From a virus: DNA of 20,452 nt. The notes under the pieces are model-generated. The model did not search any database and was not told where the DNA came from. It saw nothing but the letters and a program-made list of their open reading frames with translations. The first letter of the stretch is position 1; each line of letters opens with the position of its first letter. The DNA lies in IMG/VR virus record IMGVR_UViG_3300045141_000002, positions 1-20,452 of that record, one strand, 5' to 3'. Made by a program: the position numbers and the translations under genes. This document shows positions 13,434 to 18,594 of the stretch, piece after piece.

Positions 13434-13640
13434 ATGAAAGTCTATCCCGTGCCGGGACGCCTGGTGCGCGATCCGCGCAGCCTGCAGGAACTACCCGCCG
13501 AGGGCCGCGAGGTCCCCGACGATGATCCGTTCTGGAATCGCCGGCTTCGCGACGGCGACGTCAGCGCGACCGAGCCGGACGCGCCGGACCCGCCGCCGGA
13601 CCCGGAAGGCGCGCGGCTACCGCCAGCGAAGGAAGCCTGA
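13434..13640 (+). CDS. DUF2635 family protein (Mu gp38-like)
   Basis: A 68-residue protein with the DUF2635 signature: KVYPVPGRLVRDPRSLQELP, then EGREVPDDDPFWNRRLRDGDV (21-47), followed by a Pro/Asp-rich tail. In Mu and Mu-like contractile-tail phages this small protein is encoded just before the tail sheath gene, exactly as here, but its role is not established. AAAGGAG at 13419-13425 lies eight bases before the ATG. The stop is three bases before the sheath ATG, and the sheath ribosome binding site sits inside this gene's last codons. It marks the left edge of the Mu-like tail module. Confidence 0.87.
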   Translation: MKVYPVPGRLVRDPRSLQELPAEGREVPDDDPFWNRRLRDGDVSATEPDAPDPPPDPEGARLPPAKEA

Positions 13641-13643
13641 GCA

Positions 13644-15116
13644 ATGGCAATCAATTTCACCCACTACCCGACGAGCAATCGCGTCCCCGGCGTATTCGTC
13701 GAGATGGACCCGTCGCAAGCCAATACCGGGACGGCGCTGCAAAGTACGTTGTTGATCGGCCAGAAGTCCGCGACCGGGAACGCCGTCGCCGATACGCCGA
13801 TCGAGGTCGAAAGTCTCGCGCAAGTCCTCTCGCTTTGCGGCCAAGGCTCGATCCTCGCGGCGATGGCGCAGCGTTACCTTGACCGCGATCCGTTCGGCGA
13901 TCTCTGGCTGTTACCGCTCGTCGATCCGGCGGCCGGCGCGGCGGCGACCGGGACGATCACCGTCACCGGGACCGCGACCGCCTCGGGGACGCTCAATATC
14001 TACATCGCCGGCCAGCGGGTACAGGTCGCGGTTAACAATGGCGATACCGCCGCGATCATCGGACCGGCGATCAATACCGCGATCAATACCGACGACGATC
14101 TCCCGGTCACGAGCGCCGCCGTCGCCGGCGTCGTGACGCTGACCGCCATGAACAAGGGCGCGCTCGGCAACGACATACAGGTCCAGGCGAACTATCTCGG
14201 CGCGGGCGGCGGCGAGTATCCCGTCCCCGGCGTGACGCTCGCTTTCGTCGCGATGGCGGGCGGAACGGCTTCGCCGACGCTGACCGCCGGGCTCGCGAAC
14301 CTCTCGTCGAAACCGTTCGACTTTATCTGCACGCCGTACAACGATACCGCGTCGCTCAATGCGCTTCAGAGCTTCTTCGCCGATGACGTCGGCCGCTGGT
14401 CATGGCAACAGATGATCTATGGCGGCGCGTTCTCGGCGTTTCGCGGGACGCTCGGCGCCTGCTCGGCGTTCGGCAACGCGCGGAACGATCAGCACATGTC
14501 GGTTATGGCGTTCAACGGCTCGCCCGATCCGGTCTGGATATGGGCGGCCGAGTACTGCGCCGCCGCCGCGACGAGCCTTCGGATCGATCCGGGCCTCCCG
14601 CTTCAGTACATCAACACGACGCTTCAGCCGCCGCCGGTCGCCTCGCAATGGACGCTCGGCGAGCGGAATACCCTGCTGTACGACGGCATGAGCACAACGC
14701 GGGTCGGCGCGGGCAATACCGTGATTATCGAGCGGGCGGCGACGACCTATCAGAAGAACGCCGCCGGCGCGGTCGACAATTCGTACCTCGACGTCGAGAC
14801 GCCCTATGGGCTGATGTTCGTCTCGCGCGATCTCTCGAATTATCTGCTGACCCGCTACGCGCGCAAGAAACTGGTCAGCGATACGACGATGATCCTTCCC
14901 GGCTCGAATTGCGTTAATGGGCCTATGGTGCGCGCCTCGGTTATCGCCGAATATCGTGCGCTCGAAGCTGCCGGTTACGTACAAAACAGCCGCACATTTG
15001 CACAGAATGTCATTGTGGAGAATGCGGGCAACGGGCTTCTCAAAATCCTGGCGCCCGTGGATTTAGTCAACCAATTACGGCAGATAGCAATACTATTACA
15101 ATTCCGGAAAAGCTGA
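13644..15116 (+). CDS. Contractile tail sheath protein, Mu gpL-like
   Basis: A 490-residue sheath subunit whose contraction drives the tube through the envelope. The N-terminal NRVPGVFVEMDPSQA (12-26) and the LLIGQKSATG strand are the sheath start motifs. An inserted beta-rich domain spans about 95-215, with GTITVTGTATASGTLNIYIAGQ in it. The C-terminus LLKILAPVDLVNQLRQIAIL, ending QFRKS, is the conserved end that interlocks neighbouring subunits. AAGGAAG at 13629-13635 is the ribosome binding site. Length and order match Mu-like tails. From about 14970 the codons turn A/T-rich (ACA, TTA, CTA, ATA), unlike the rest of the gene, and an HNH endonuclease gene starts two bases after the stop. Confidence 0.94.
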   Translation: MAINFTHYPTSNRVPGVFVEMDPSQANTGTALQSTLLIGQKSATGNAVADTPIEVESLAQVLSLCGQGSILAAMAQRYLDRDPFGDLWLLPLVDPAAGAAATGTITVTGTATASGTLNIYIAGQRVQVAVNNGDTAAIIGPAINTAINTDDDLPVTSAAVAGVVTLTAMNKGALGNDIQVQANYLGAGGGEYPVPGVTLAFVAMAGGTASPTLTAGLANLSSKPFDFICTPYNDTASLNALQSFFADDVGRWSWQQMIYGGAFSAFRGTLGACSAFGNARNDQHMSVMAFNGSPDPVWIWAAEYCAAAATSLRIDPGLPLQYINTTLQPPPVASQWTLGERNTLLYDGMSTTRVGAGNTVIIERAATTYQKNAAGAVDNSYLDVETPYGLMFVSRDLSNYLLTRYARKKLVSDTTMILPGSNCVNGPMVRASVIAEYRALEAAGYVQNSRTFAQNVIVENAGNGLLKILAPVDLVNQLRQIAILLQFRKS

Positions 15117-15118
15117 CT

Positions 15119-15664
15119 ATGACGCCTGAACAGAAGCGGGAAGGTCATCGGCAAGCGCAGGCGCGATATTATGCGAAGAACCGTGACAAGTATGTAGCAT
15201 GGGAAGCGGACCATCGGGACGGGAGGCTTGCGCGCAAGCGGCTAAGGGATGGGGAGCGCAAGGAGCAGCGGCTTCATTACGCGCGGCAATGGCGCCGCGA
15301 TCATCCGGAGCATTTTCGCCAGCGCTATCAAACCGAGGAACACCTTCGGGTAGCGCACATACTTCGTGGGCATATTCATAGTGCATTAGTACACCGGGCG
15401 ACCGGCAAGGAATGGCGGTCGCACGCTAAAATCGGCGCAATCCTGGGCTGCTCGAAAGCTGATTTGATCGCACACATCGAGGCGCAATTCTTACCCGGCA
15501 TGTCATGGGCGAACTATGGCCGCAAGGGCTGGGAGATCGATCATATCAAGCCGTGTGTTACCTTTGACTTGACGCAGCATGCCCAGGTCTTGCTCTGCTT
15601 CCACTTCTCAAACCTTCGCCCGCTATGGCGATCGGATAATGCCCGCAGATCGCGAAAGGAGTAG
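15119..15664 (+). CDS. HNH endonuclease, probable free-standing homing type
   Basis: A 181-residue basic protein that ends in an HNH nuclease domain: GWEIDHIKPC (D141, H142), then CFHFSNLRPLWRSDNARRSRK (160-180), where N165 and N174 are the expected later active-site residues. The first 100 residues are Arg/Lys/His-rich and hydrophilic, probably DNA-binding, with ALGCSKADLIAHIE-like modules as seen in phage homing nucleases (here at 108-121). It splits sheath from tube, genes that are neighbours in Mu-like phages, with no role there. The upstream GGAAAAG is its likely ribosome binding site. Its last codons hold the AAAGGAG that serves the tube gene. Codon use is less GC-rich than in the rest of the module. 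It most likely spreads by cutting phages that lack it. Confidence 0.85.
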   Translation: MTPEQKREGHRQAQARYYAKNRDKYVAWEADHRDGRLARKRLRDGERKEQRLHYARQWRRDHPEHFRQRYQTEEHLRVAHILRGHIHSALVHRATGKEWRSHAKIGAILGCSKADLIAHIEAQFLPGMSWANYGRKGWEIDHIKPCVTFDLTQHAQVLLCFHFSNLRPLWRSDNARRSRKE

Positions 15665-15669
15665 TTGTA

Positions 15670-16035
15670 ATGGCAGCGTGCGAACGTCTGGCCGGGATCA
15701 CCGGCCTGACCATCGACGGGACGGCTTATATGGTCGTTTCCGATGTTACGTGGTCGCCGGCGCGGTGGAAGCGCGAGACGCTCGTCGGTCTCGATAGCGT
15801 CCACGGCTTTTCCGAAGTCCCGATTCAAGGCTACGTCGAGGCGACGCTTCGCGATAGCGGCGATATCAGCATCGGCGACTTCAACGAGATGCGCTGCGTC
15901 GAGATTCTCGTGACGCTCGCGAATGGCAAGGTCGTCGGCGGCTCGAATATGTGGAACACGAGCGCGCTCGAGGTCCGCGCCGCCGAGGGGACCTTTCAGG
16001 TCCGCTTCGACGGTCTCGACGTGAGCGAGTCATGA
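15670..16035 (+). CDS. Tail tube protein, Mu gpM-like
   Basis: A 121-residue protein that would stack into the inner tail tube within the sheath. The start CERLAGITGLTIDGTAYMVV, the central RWKRETLVGLDSVHGFSEVP and the stretch GYVEATLRDSGDISIGDFNE are the pattern of the Mu gpM / phage tail tube family, and the length matches. AAAGGAG at 15655-15661 lies eight bases before the ATG, inside the end of the HNH gene. The stop overlaps the chaperone start as ATGA. High expression is expected for a tube protein, and the strong ribosome binding site agrees. Confidence 0.9.
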   Translation: MAACERLAGITGLTIDGTAYMVVSDVTWSPARWKRETLVGLDSVHGFSEVPIQGYVEATLRDSGDISIGDFNEMRCVEILVTLANGKVVGGSNMWNTSALEVRAAEGTFQVRFDGLDVSES

Positions 16036-16379
16036 TGGACGCAATCACCGGCGAATTCGACGCGACCGAGGCCGAGCCGCTGCCGCGTACGCTCGATATG
16101 GACATTGATGTAACCTTTCAGAAAAAGCGGTTCACGTCGCTGCATCTCGAAGAACCTACCGCGAAACAGGTGGAAAGGGCCGAGTTGGAACTTGGCGCAA
16201 ACACCCGTTCGATGGATATCTCGCCTTATCAGGCGCGGCGCTATCAGATCGCGCTGGTCGCCGCCGTCGCGCAGGTGCCGCGTGAAGTCGTTCTCGAACT
16301 GAAGCACAGCGAGCTAATGAGGGCCGCCAATTTTTTGCGGGACTTACTAGAGCCCTCCCCGAAGGATGGCGGGACCTGA
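16032..16379 (+). CDS. Tail assembly chaperone, Mu gp41-like (unshifted product)
   Basis: A 115-residue protein between tube and tape measure, the fixed position of the tail assembly chaperone. The sequence RTLDMDIDVTFQKKRFTSLHLEEPTAKQVERAE fits the Mu gp41-like chaperone family, with a strand-rich start (26-44) and then helices. I start at ATG 16032 because it overlaps the tube stop (ATGA); ATG 16035 follows directly. The frame stays open further upstream to 15951 only as an overlap with the tube gene. Near its end, at 16331-16337, there is a -1 slippery heptamer, so a fraction of ribosomes should make the longer 159-residue form described in the next entry. The two forms would coat the tape measure and recruit tube subunits. 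Confidence 0.86.
   Translation: MMDAITGEFDATEAEPLPRTLDMDIDVTFQKKRFTSLHLEEPTAKQVERAELELGANTRSMDISPYQARRYQIALVAAVAQVPREVVLELKHSELMRAANFLRDLLEPSPKDGGT
16331..16337 (+). promoter_or_regulatory. Programmed -1 frameshift slippery site
   Basis: The heptamer T TTT TTG fits the X-XXY-YYZ rule in the chaperone frame (codons TTT 16332-16334 and TTG 16335-16337). After a -1 slip the tRNAs re-pair on TTT and TTT, and reading goes on at 16337. A possible hairpin follows: GCCCTCC (16352-16358) with GGATGGC (16364-16370), five-base loop and one mismatch, 14 bases after the slip site. The new frame is open for 57 codons. Frameshifting in this gene pair is a conserved feature of long-tailed phages. Confidence 0.8.
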
Positions 16380-16510
16380 TCGCCGATCTCACTCGCTTCT
16401 GGGGATGGGGGCCGCACGACGCATGGGGCCTGACCGGAACGCAACTGATCTGGTGGGCCGAGCAGTCGCACCGTATCGCCGAGCGCGAGCGAGCCGCGCG
16501 CGAGACCTAG
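16337..16510 (+). CDS. Tail assembly chaperone frameshift extension (GpE/gp42-like)
   Basis: This is the -1 frame reached after the slippery site; it has no good start codon of its own and is best read as a fused extension. It adds 57 residues to the 102 before the slip, for a total near 159. The part DLIADLTRFWGWGPHDAWGL, followed by LIWWAEQSHRIAE, has the Trp-rich look of the short downstream half of such chaperones (P2 GpE or the Mu gp41-gp42 pair): helix, WGW, Pro, W, then a WW-x-E helix. It ends at TAG 16508-16510, six bases before the tape measure ATG. In related phages the extension contacts the tape measure. Confidence 0.78.
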   Translation, partial: AGLTRALPEGWRDLIADLTRFWGWGPHDAWGLTGTQLIWWAEQSHRIAERERAARET

Positions 16511-16515
16511 CGTAA

Positions 16516-18594
16516 ATGGCCGGTTACGCCGTTACCTTCACGGTCGTCGACAACGCGACCAAGCAGATCGACGCGATCAATCGCCGCGTCGCGCAGATGC
16601 GCGCGCCGATGGAGCGAATGTCCCGCTCGGTCTCGCGCTTCGTCGACGTCTCGGGCTTGCGGAAGGTCGCGACGGGATTCGAGTGGATCGCGAAGTCGGT
16701 CGGCACGGTATTCCGCTCGTTAAGCGCCGTCGTCCCGCTGATGGGCGCGATCACCGGCGCGGCCTCGATCGCCGGCATGGTCAAGCTCGTGGCCTCGTAT
16801 GCCGATTGGGCGCGTACGCTCGTTCAGACCGCCGACAATATCGGCATCACGACGCAGCAGCTTCAACAATTCGAGGACGCGACACGGCTCGCCGGCGGCA
16901 ACGCGTCGGATATGGCCGGATCGCTGAAGTCGCTGCACGACAACCTGGCTGATTTCAACATCGGTCGCGGCAATGCCACCGAAGTCGGCCAGATGCTAAA
17001 CCGGCTCGGCGTCAATGCGCGCGACGCGACCGGGCATCTTCGTTCGGCCGGCGATGTCATGCGGGAAGTGATCCCCAAGATCGCCGCGCTGAAGGACCCG
17101 GCGGATCGCGCGCGGATCGCGACCGGCCTACTCGGCGCCGAGGGCGACAAGCTCGTCGAGACGTTCCGCCAGTCGAGCCAGAGCTTCGCGCAATGGTTCT
17201 CCGACGCGAGCCGATACAAGGAACTGACCGACGAGCAAAAGAAAAGCCTTCAGCAATTCAGCGAGGCGCAGGGCCGCGTCGGCGTCGCGTTCGACCATCT
17301 CGGACAGCAGATTAGCATTATGATCGCGCAGCACTTCGGACCGCTGCTGCAAAGGTTCGCGATCTTCGTCGAGAAACATACGCCGGATATCCTTCGCGCG
17401 CTCGATCAGCTATCGACGCGCTTCGCCGCTTGGCTCGAAAGTATCAAGTGGGAGGACGTCGAGGCCGGCATAACCAAATTCATCGACTCGCTGAAGTGGG
17501 TCTGGAAGCATCTCGACGATATCAAGCTCGCCGCCGAGGTCATCGCGACGCTCTTCGTCGTCAAATGGGGCGTCGGGATCGTCCGCGCGATCGGTGGCGT
17601 CGATACCGCGCTCGGCGTCGCCGGCGTCGGCGCGGCCGGCGGCTCGGGCTTACTCGGCTCGCTCGGCCGGACGCTCGCGCTCGCCAACGCGACGGTTCTC
17701 GCGTTCCAGACCATGCAGAAGGCGTACGATCCGGCGACATACGCGCCGGAAAACCTCCCGGCCGGCTCGCCGTTCTGGCAGGGCATCCCCGAGGACGAGC
17801 AGCGCAAATATCCGAATTCGCCGGTCAATCAGAAACGCGGCGGTGGTCCGTCGTTCCTACAGAACCCCGCCGGCTGGCTGAAAAATCGGCTGTTCAATAG
17901 CGGCGGTCCGACCGCACCGCTCGATCTGCCGCCGGGTACGCCAGGACAACCGGCTCCCGAGCTTTCCGCGCTCCCCGGTGACGAGTCATGGGGGCACTAC
18001 GGCGCGCGGGCGAACAATCCCGGCGATCTTGAATATGCAAATTGGGAAGGCGCGGGCGGCCGCTTCAAATACATCGATCCGCACGTCCACACCGCGCATA
18101 CGATGGCGGTGTTCAAGACGATGGAAGAGGGCGTCTCGGCGGCTTACAAACTGATGGAGGCGAAGCAAAAGAAATACGGCGCGACACTCGCCGGCGCGGT
18201 CCACGGATGGGCGGAAACGCCGGGCTATACCGATATGCTCGCAAAGCAAATCGGTATCGACCCGAACGCGCCTTTCGACGTTTCCAAGGCTGATCCGGAA
18301 ATGGTCCAACGCGTGTTGCAAGCGCAATTCAAACTAGAGGGTAGCACCAAGGGTTCGCATGGCGTGACGGGACAGCAGATTCTCGGCGGCATTAACCTCG
18401 CGCGTGGTGTCGCGCCTCCGGTCGCCGCCGCGCCGCCGGTCAATGTCGCGCAGCCGACGCCGCCGAACGGCGCGGTCGACGTCTCGATTACCCACAAGAA
18501 CGCGCCGCCGAATTCCTCCGTCACCGCGACCGGCTCGGGATCGGTCAATGTCGCGCCGGTCCGCGTCGAGCATCAGGACATGGCGAGCATATGA
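16516..18594 (+). CDS. Tail tape measure protein with C-terminal NNPG-type domain
   Basis: A 692-residue protein that sets tail length and is likely ejected with the DNA. The N-terminal helices include a hydrophobic stretch (68-96, SLSAVVPLMGAITGAASIAG onward), then a long helical core with TADNIGITTQQLQQFEDA, and a second hydrophobic area (about 340-400, with VIATLFVVKWGVGIVRAIGG). At 495-620 lies a separate domain beginning ARANNPGDLEY, with later motifs FKTMEEGVSAAYKLM, LAGAVHGWAETPGYTDMLAK and AQFKLEG. This resembles the NNPGN domain of phage structural proteins and muramidase-like proteins thought to act at peptidoglycan. The last 70 residues are Pro/Ala-rich. The start ATG 16516 lies six bases after the chaperone extension. 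The stop overlaps the next gene as ATGA. Confidence 0.88.
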   Translation: MAGYAVTFTVVDNATKQIDAINRRVAQMRAPMERMSRSVSRFVDVSGLRKVATGFEWIAKSVGTVFRSLSAVVPLMGAITGAASIAGMVKLVASYADWARTLVQTADNIGITTQQLQQFEDATRLAGGNASDMAGSLKSLHDNLADFNIGRGNATEVGQMLNRLGVNARDATGHLRSAGDVMREVIPKIAALKDPADRARIATGLLGAEGDKLVETFRQSSQSFAQWFSDASRYKELTDEQKKSLQQFSEAQGRVGVAFDHLGQQISIMIAQHFGPLLQRFAIFVEKHTPDILRALDQLSTRFAAWLESIKWEDVEAGITKFIDSLKWVWKHLDDIKLAAEVIATLFVVKWGVGIVRAIGGVDTALGVAGVGAAGGSGLLGSLGRTLALANATVLAFQTMQKAYDPATYAPENLPAGSPFWQGIPEDEQRKYPNSPVNQKRGGGPSFLQNPAGWLKNRLFNSGGPTAPLDLPPGTPGQPAPELSALPGDESWGHYGARANNPGDLEYANWEGAGGRFKYIDPHVHTAHTMAVFKTMEEGVSAAYKLMEAKQKKYGATLAGAVHGWAETPGYTDMLAKQIGIDPNAPFDVSKADPEMVQRVLQAQFKLEGSTKGSHGVTGQQILGGINLARGVAPPVAAAPPVNVAQPTPPNGAVDVSITHKNAPPNSSVTATGSGSVNVAPVRVEHQDMASI

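Follow-up and report, generated by a model that had tools for sequence, protein, structure and literature searches.

The virus record IMGVR_UViG_3300045141_000002, analysed here over its whole length of 20,452 nucleotides (nt) and referred to as the window, encodes a Mu-like contractile-tail module in which a gene for a free-standing HNH endonuclease lies between the tail sheath and tail tube genes. The sheath gene (13644..15116, + strand, 490 amino acids (aa)), the putative homing target, was identified by Pfam Phage_sheath_1, _domII and _1C and by phrog_165 (E=9e-167). The HNH gene (15119..15664, + strand, 181 aa) was identified by phrog_1035 ‘endonuclease VII’ (5.5e-9), by alignment and by an AlphaFold model, and is followed by the tube gene (15670..16035, + strand; Pfam Tail_tube, 4.8e-26). 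All three are separate, intact reading frames, and the nuclease is not borne by an intron or an intein. A sequence-only reading of this DNA had described the HNH gene as an insertion between sheath and tube, and this was confirmed by two HNH-less relatives (L022 and L023; L-numbers label related loci, all close ones being metagenomic contigs), which have only a 12-nt sheath-tube gap. The same reading held that the insert fits exactly between the sheath stop codon and a ribosome-binding site. On the upstream side the fit stands, with the gene starting 2 nt past the sheath stop. On the downstream side it does not, because the AAGGAG sequence (15656..15661, + strand) lies within the HNH gene, where it forms the final two codons (Lys-Glu) and also serves as the tube Shine-Dalgarno sequence; 5 nt separate the HNH stop from the tube start. 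The insertion thus brings the tube gene a new ribosome-binding site, and a C-terminal -RKE is found in many nuclease family members at the sheath/tube junction. At the other border, the recoded last sheath codons make a purine-rich GGAAAAG (15106..15112, + strand), which is likely the Shine-Dalgarno sequence of the HNH gene; relatives carry CGCAAGTCG at this position. Both motifs were read directly from the sequence.

The HNH-type residues of the nuclease (H142/N165/N174) are C-terminal. In an alignment of 19 relatives H142 is nearly invariant and N165 invariant, and N174 is replaced by H in L026 and L029. In the AlphaFold model (mean predicted local distance difference test score 87.8) the N-terminus is made of long helices and the C-terminus is a small strand-strand-helix unit, with strands at E138-141 and E167-170 and a helix at H171-176. 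This modelled arrangement, an H-N-H/N motif in a small beta-beta-alpha fold, places the protein in the HNH endonuclease superfamily. Pfam HNH itself was matched by one family member only (E=0.0016). For the window nuclease, Foldseek returned no PDB match, which does not exclude one, a PDB sequence search gave nothing usable, and NCBIfam gave no match. The DHHRN (Endo VII-like) family is defined by DHDH, a CX2-4C before it, a CX2C after it and conserved Arg and Asn (PMC6083498); the window protein reads DHIKPC, with no second His and no Cys pairs, and does not belong to that family. It also has no LAGLIDADG-type domain, the HNH-type motif standing instead. The gene is intergenic, and close relatives either carry one at this site or lack it there, as with free-standing homing endonuclease genes.

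Comparison with L022 and L023, whose sheath proteins are 97-98% identical to that of the window and whose sheath ends are ordinary and GC-rich, located the change precisely. Over codons 1-410, 45-50 codons differ (11-12%). Over codons 411-441, a transition tract of 31 codons (14874..14966, + strand), 29-32% differ; these 9-10 codons, mostly silent changes, are possibly the left shoulder of a conversion tract. Over codons 442-490 (14967-15113), 34-36 of 49 differ (69-73%), and 31-33 of these changes are synonymous and 3 are not. These last 49 codons and the stop (14967..15116, + strand) form the recoded sheath 3’ end. Two claims of the earlier reading are borne out here: that roughly the last 45 sheath codons are A/T-rich and that the conserved sheath ending is nonetheless kept. 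Synonymous G+C content at third codon positions (GC3) is 0.84 in the sheath body, falls to 0.53 over the last 45 codons and reaches 0.39 over the final 18. Between the window and L022, 315/343 conserved residues of the body use the same codon, as against 7/23 within the last 24 codons (Fisher p = 1.7e-11). On the other side of the insert, the tube gene differs from the relatives only at 15675 and 15678 and is then identical up to 15816. The recoded sheath together with the two tube changes indicates that a block from about 14,880-14,967 to 15,678 was replaced; its sheath part is recoded with the protein nearly unchanged.

To place this locus among its relatives, 80 further sheath loci were collected, 71 non-redundant genes were aligned, and codon identity was scored at conserved residues. 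Comparing sheath genes with and without the insertion, and codon use along the gene, as the sequence-only reading had proposed, showed a recoded end on an ordinary body. The HNH gene is present at the junction in 11/71 loci and absent from the other 60, so that it is not fixed, and nearly all of the 60 keep a GC-rich end; either finding reversed would have spoken against the earlier claim. The sheath 3’ or tube 5’ end was recoded in 10/11 loci with a junction HNH gene and in 4/60 without one (Fisher p = 2e-8). Between recoded HNH carriers and HNH-less loci, identity was 0.298 in the last 24 sheath codons and 0.546 in the body, compared with 0.560 and 0.539 among the HNH-less loci themselves. 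Where an HNH gene lies just upstream of the sheath gene, it is the first 24 codons that are changed (0.372, compared with a body value of 0.545). Control values from the opposite gene ends were normal in both cases (0.510 and 0.548). In the identity profile the 3’ effect lies mainly within the final ~27 codons and the 5’ effect within the first ~19.

The side that is recoded also varies with the nuclease. In L027 and L029 the sheath end is normal and the tube start recoded, and in L026 and L016 both are recoded; tube-start identity in these four was 0.28-0.30 vs 0.474. Inserts of ~190-700 nt without HNH occupy the same junction in seven loci (L064, L070, L032, L047, L084, L086 and L091), and their sheath ends are normal. 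One locus (L111) carries HNH and a downstream insert, two others (L086 and L087) carry the same insert without HNH, and only the first is recoded.

Relatedness among the phages does not account for this association. On the sheath-body tree the junction HNH gene changes state 9 times, within the 8-11 changes given by shuffles, and it occurs together with an altered end in scattered lineages, as expected of a unit moving by homing and co-conversion. Independent pairs drawn on the sheath tree gave 7-0 for an upstream HNH gene with a recoded 5’ end (p = 0.016) and, for the junction gene, 6-0 and a single tie (median p = 0.031). Nearest-relative Fisher tests, not all individually significant, pointed in the same direction in 8/8 and 7/7 cases. 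The nuclease proteins, by contrast, fall into groups according to their junction, which changes 3 times over 26 rows, and in both L026 and L029, whose nucleases are sisters, the nuclease faces a recoded tube start. The nuclease gene is polymorphic for presence, its clades are junction-specific, and recoding specific to one gene end follows it across lineages.

We think it likely, judging from these sequence comparisons, that site-specific free-standing homing nucleases travel together with the gene end that they target, in a copy made resistant to cleavage by synonymous recoding. The target would be the conserved end of the adjoining gene, in this case the final ~60-150 bp of the sheath gene in HNH-less phages, and the mobile unit would be the nuclease gene plus the synonymously recoded end. 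In a mixed infection the nuclease would cut the other phage’s unrecoded sheath end, and repair from the HNH-bearing genome would copy in both the nuclease and the recoded end. The recoded DNA would encode a working sheath end yet escape cutting, a built-in antidote. A nuclease that lies beside one gene end, and almost only beside its rewritten version, is what would be expected if the rewritten end is protected. The sequence-only reading had attributed the altered end to co-conversion of flanking DNA. The scattered co-occurrence agrees with that part, and co-conversion explains how the tract travels, but it leaves the strength of the recoding unexplained; selection for resistance to self-cleavage would account for it best.

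Plain co-conversion would have the flank be DNA of a diverged, perhaps AT-richer, donor phage, its codons without function. The raised divergence that begins ~90 nt further upstream is conversion-tract-like, recoded ends lean toward AT-ending codons, and the window HNH gene (GC3 0.64) lies below the sheath body. However, codon agreement in recoded ends is 0.30, close to the 0.31 expected for uniform random synonyms and lower than the 0.38-0.50 that the genes’ own body usage would give, whereas sheaths only ~60% identical in protein still agree at about 0.54-0.56 of conserved codons and the sampled HNH-less lineages, taken as donors, would give 0.56. The change is also not confined to composition. 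Codons that retain the third-base class are still less often identical (0.557 vs 0.745 for G/C-ending and 0.747 vs 0.959 for A/T-ending codons), the sheath 5’ end loses AT-ending codons of relatives as well (0.27 vs 0.32), and the GC3 of recoded ends (0.33-0.50 in the last 18 codons) is lower than that of the HNH genes (0.60-0.70). Because agreement lies at the random-synonym level and the change goes beyond an A/T shift, the rewriting appears to have been selected and not merely inherited from a donor, which makes plain co-conversion improbable.

Repeated cutting followed by error-prone repair beside the target, as proposed for the exon borders of mitochondrial mobile introns (PMC5378118), could leave mostly silent changes clustered next to an insertion, as they are here. 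The level of random synonyms is, however, reached over 24 codons, and rare codons recur in the recoded ends of distant sheaths: AGA (-12), ATT (-10) and ATA (-8) are common to 6/8, in the pattern AGA CAA ATT ... ATA. Such sharing across sheath lineages suggests that ends moved between them, and we regard mutagenic repair as a distinctly unlikely source. Still less probable is that recoding supplies a promoter, ribosome-binding site or mRNA structure needed after gene insertion. The GGAAAAG formed by the last three sheath codons ahead of the HNH start, and the AAG GAG of the HNH gene that doubles as the tube Shine-Dalgarno sequence, fit such a role, but a promoter scan found no promoter-like site in the recoded tract, other genes inserted at the same junction bring no recoding, and the effect covers 20-27 codons and falls on one or the other flanking gene, upstream or downstream, according to which nuclease is present. 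A metagenome assembly artefact, conceivable since the close loci are all metagenomic contigs, is very unlikely, given that about twenty contigs, drawn from many samples, show the pattern with intact frames and matching controls.

Several observations weigh against a mobile nuclease traveling with a selected, resistant end. One of the 11 junction carriers (L075) has neither side recoded and is the sole exception. Recoded sheath 3’ ends without a junction HNH gene occur at L044:4900-4973 (same as L009), L098:4900-4973 and, more weakly, L040:4900-4973; these could be nuclease losses or resistant recombinants or alleles. The shift to AT-ending codons is part of the recoding. No donor nearly identical to the window tract was found, including by an exact 23-mer search of the recoded end. 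Nuclease similarity and recoded-end similarity were not significantly correlated (Spearman 0.22, p = 0.27), and co-inheritance of each nuclease-end pair is therefore not proven by phylogeny. Finally, the cut-offs for ‘recoded’ in the junction counts were set on the same data, and junction counts, independent pairs and independent acquisitions are all small numbers.

Nucleases of this kind also occupy other borders. Sister HNH genes lie between the tail chaperone and tape-measure genes at L023:5380-5931 (also L003), L025:5812-6363 and L055:6482-7036, a position without such a gene in the window. The tape-measure start is recoded in L025 and L055 (0.24-0.25 vs a mean of 0.534), more weakly so in L023 (0.417), and normal in L026 and L085. 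The last of these has an HNH gene truncated to 85 aa (L085:5829-6086), probably an element in decay, and the start of the tape-measure gene behind it has normal codons. More distant relatives, with sheaths 42-49% identical, carry a sheath/tube HNH gene at L125:3001-3483, L128:3001-3552 and L142:3001-3378, and the junction therefore seems to be an old hot spot. In the cultured Vibrio phages L180 and L182-L188, the terminase/portal border holds a related HNH gene, a T5orf172-type nuclease, or nothing. Terminase ends differ between some Vibrio carriers and empty-site phage 1.175.O: codon identity between Vibrio phage 1.246.O and 1.175.O is 0.90 in the body and about 0.5 in the last 60 codons. Vibrio phage 1.158.O has no insert, yet its terminase end is changed and agrees with the carriers, which leaves this border at most a candidate for the same pattern.

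On balance, we lean toward a general two-part drive in this nuclease family, in which each nuclease clade would be bound to one border and would carry a synonymously rewritten 3’ or 5’ end of an essential gene as its antidote, a recoded-rescue homing drive that would have arisen repeatedly in nature. Nuclease-free recoded ends would then be resistant alleles. Synthetic homing drives with recoded rescue place a nuclease at an essential gene together with a recoded, uncuttable, functional gene end, and have been built with CRISPR in insects. Those drives are engineered; the phage case is apparently natural.

The nearest natural likeness is to the WHO elements of Torulaspora and Lachancea yeasts (PMC7282813). 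There, as in the sheath/tube case, a conserved essential gene is followed directly by the nuclease gene. The WHO mobile unit includes a differing 3’ gene end that confers resistance and is swapped at every homing (PMC7282813), the role proposed here for the recoded sheath end. The phage nuclease likewise adjoins a gene end that differs from nuclease-free alleles. WHO proteins have a LAGLIDADG-type domain with a zinc finger, however, and the phage enzyme is an HNH nuclease; WHO homing leaves displaced gene fragments in clusters, whereas the phage replacement is clean, with no duplicate downstream; and WHO elements act mainly on one gene (FBA1), whereas the phage recoding affects tail genes, at their 3’ and 5’ ends alike. 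Fungal mitochondrial mobile ORFs (Allomyces atp6; Glomus atp6, atp9, cox2 and nad3) also travel with a diverged copy of a C-terminus, at 64-81% nucleotide and 94-100% protein identity, but there the native C-terminus remains downstream and the pattern was interpreted as horizontal transfer, not resistance recoding (PMC3630166).

Among phages, the Seg and Mob nucleases of T-even phages lie between conserved genes, cut a neighboring gene and cause flank co-conversion and marker exclusion, and the principle of cutting followed by co-conversion was established there (PMC2988022). Most of them are either GIY-YIG enzymes (Seg) or HNH enzymes whose C-terminal domain is of another kind (Mob), and the portion of that account used here does not describe systematic silent recoding of the adjacent gene end (PMC2988022). 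F-CphI of cyanophage S-PM2 is, like the window protein, a small phage nuclease with a C-terminal catalytic motif and an ‘endonuclease VII’ annotation, but protection there comes from an intron in the target, and its DHDH and Cys-pair motifs are absent here (PMC6083498). Nuclease genes at borders of genetic exchange have been described (PMC10448857); in the open-access literature we did not find the pattern of nuclease plus recoded neighboring end described for phages. The best reading is of a phage counterpart of the yeast WHO elements, in which recoding acts on gene starts too and no displaced copy is left.

The remainder of the module is conventional. A DUF2635-type gene (13434-13640), named by its place and annotated counterparts, precedes the sheath gene, and a tail chaperone (from about 16047) and the tape measure gene (16516-18594) follow the tube gene. 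The tail-chaperone region (16043-16500) is strongly diverged from L023, the tube and tape-measure genes being nearly identical, and is another small replaced block. Within the tape-measure gene, 17914-18415 cannot be aligned to L022 or L023 and both flanks can; the proteins suggest that one C-terminal domain, probably cell-wall-degrading, was exchanged for another. No related prophage turned up when a genome collection was scanned with the sheath alignment.

How free-standing homing nucleases spare their own genome has usually been explained case by case. Here natural alleles number in the dozens, some carrying the nuclease and some not, at several borders, so that the presumably protected DNA can be mapped codon by codon and the recognition region predicted before any biochemistry. 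The association would explain why phage structural genes show local mosaicism and patches of odd codons, and would provide a mark in the sequence by which active homing nucleases and their targets can be found in metagenomes. It would also be a model from nature for recoded-rescue gene drives and for the origin of resistance to them.
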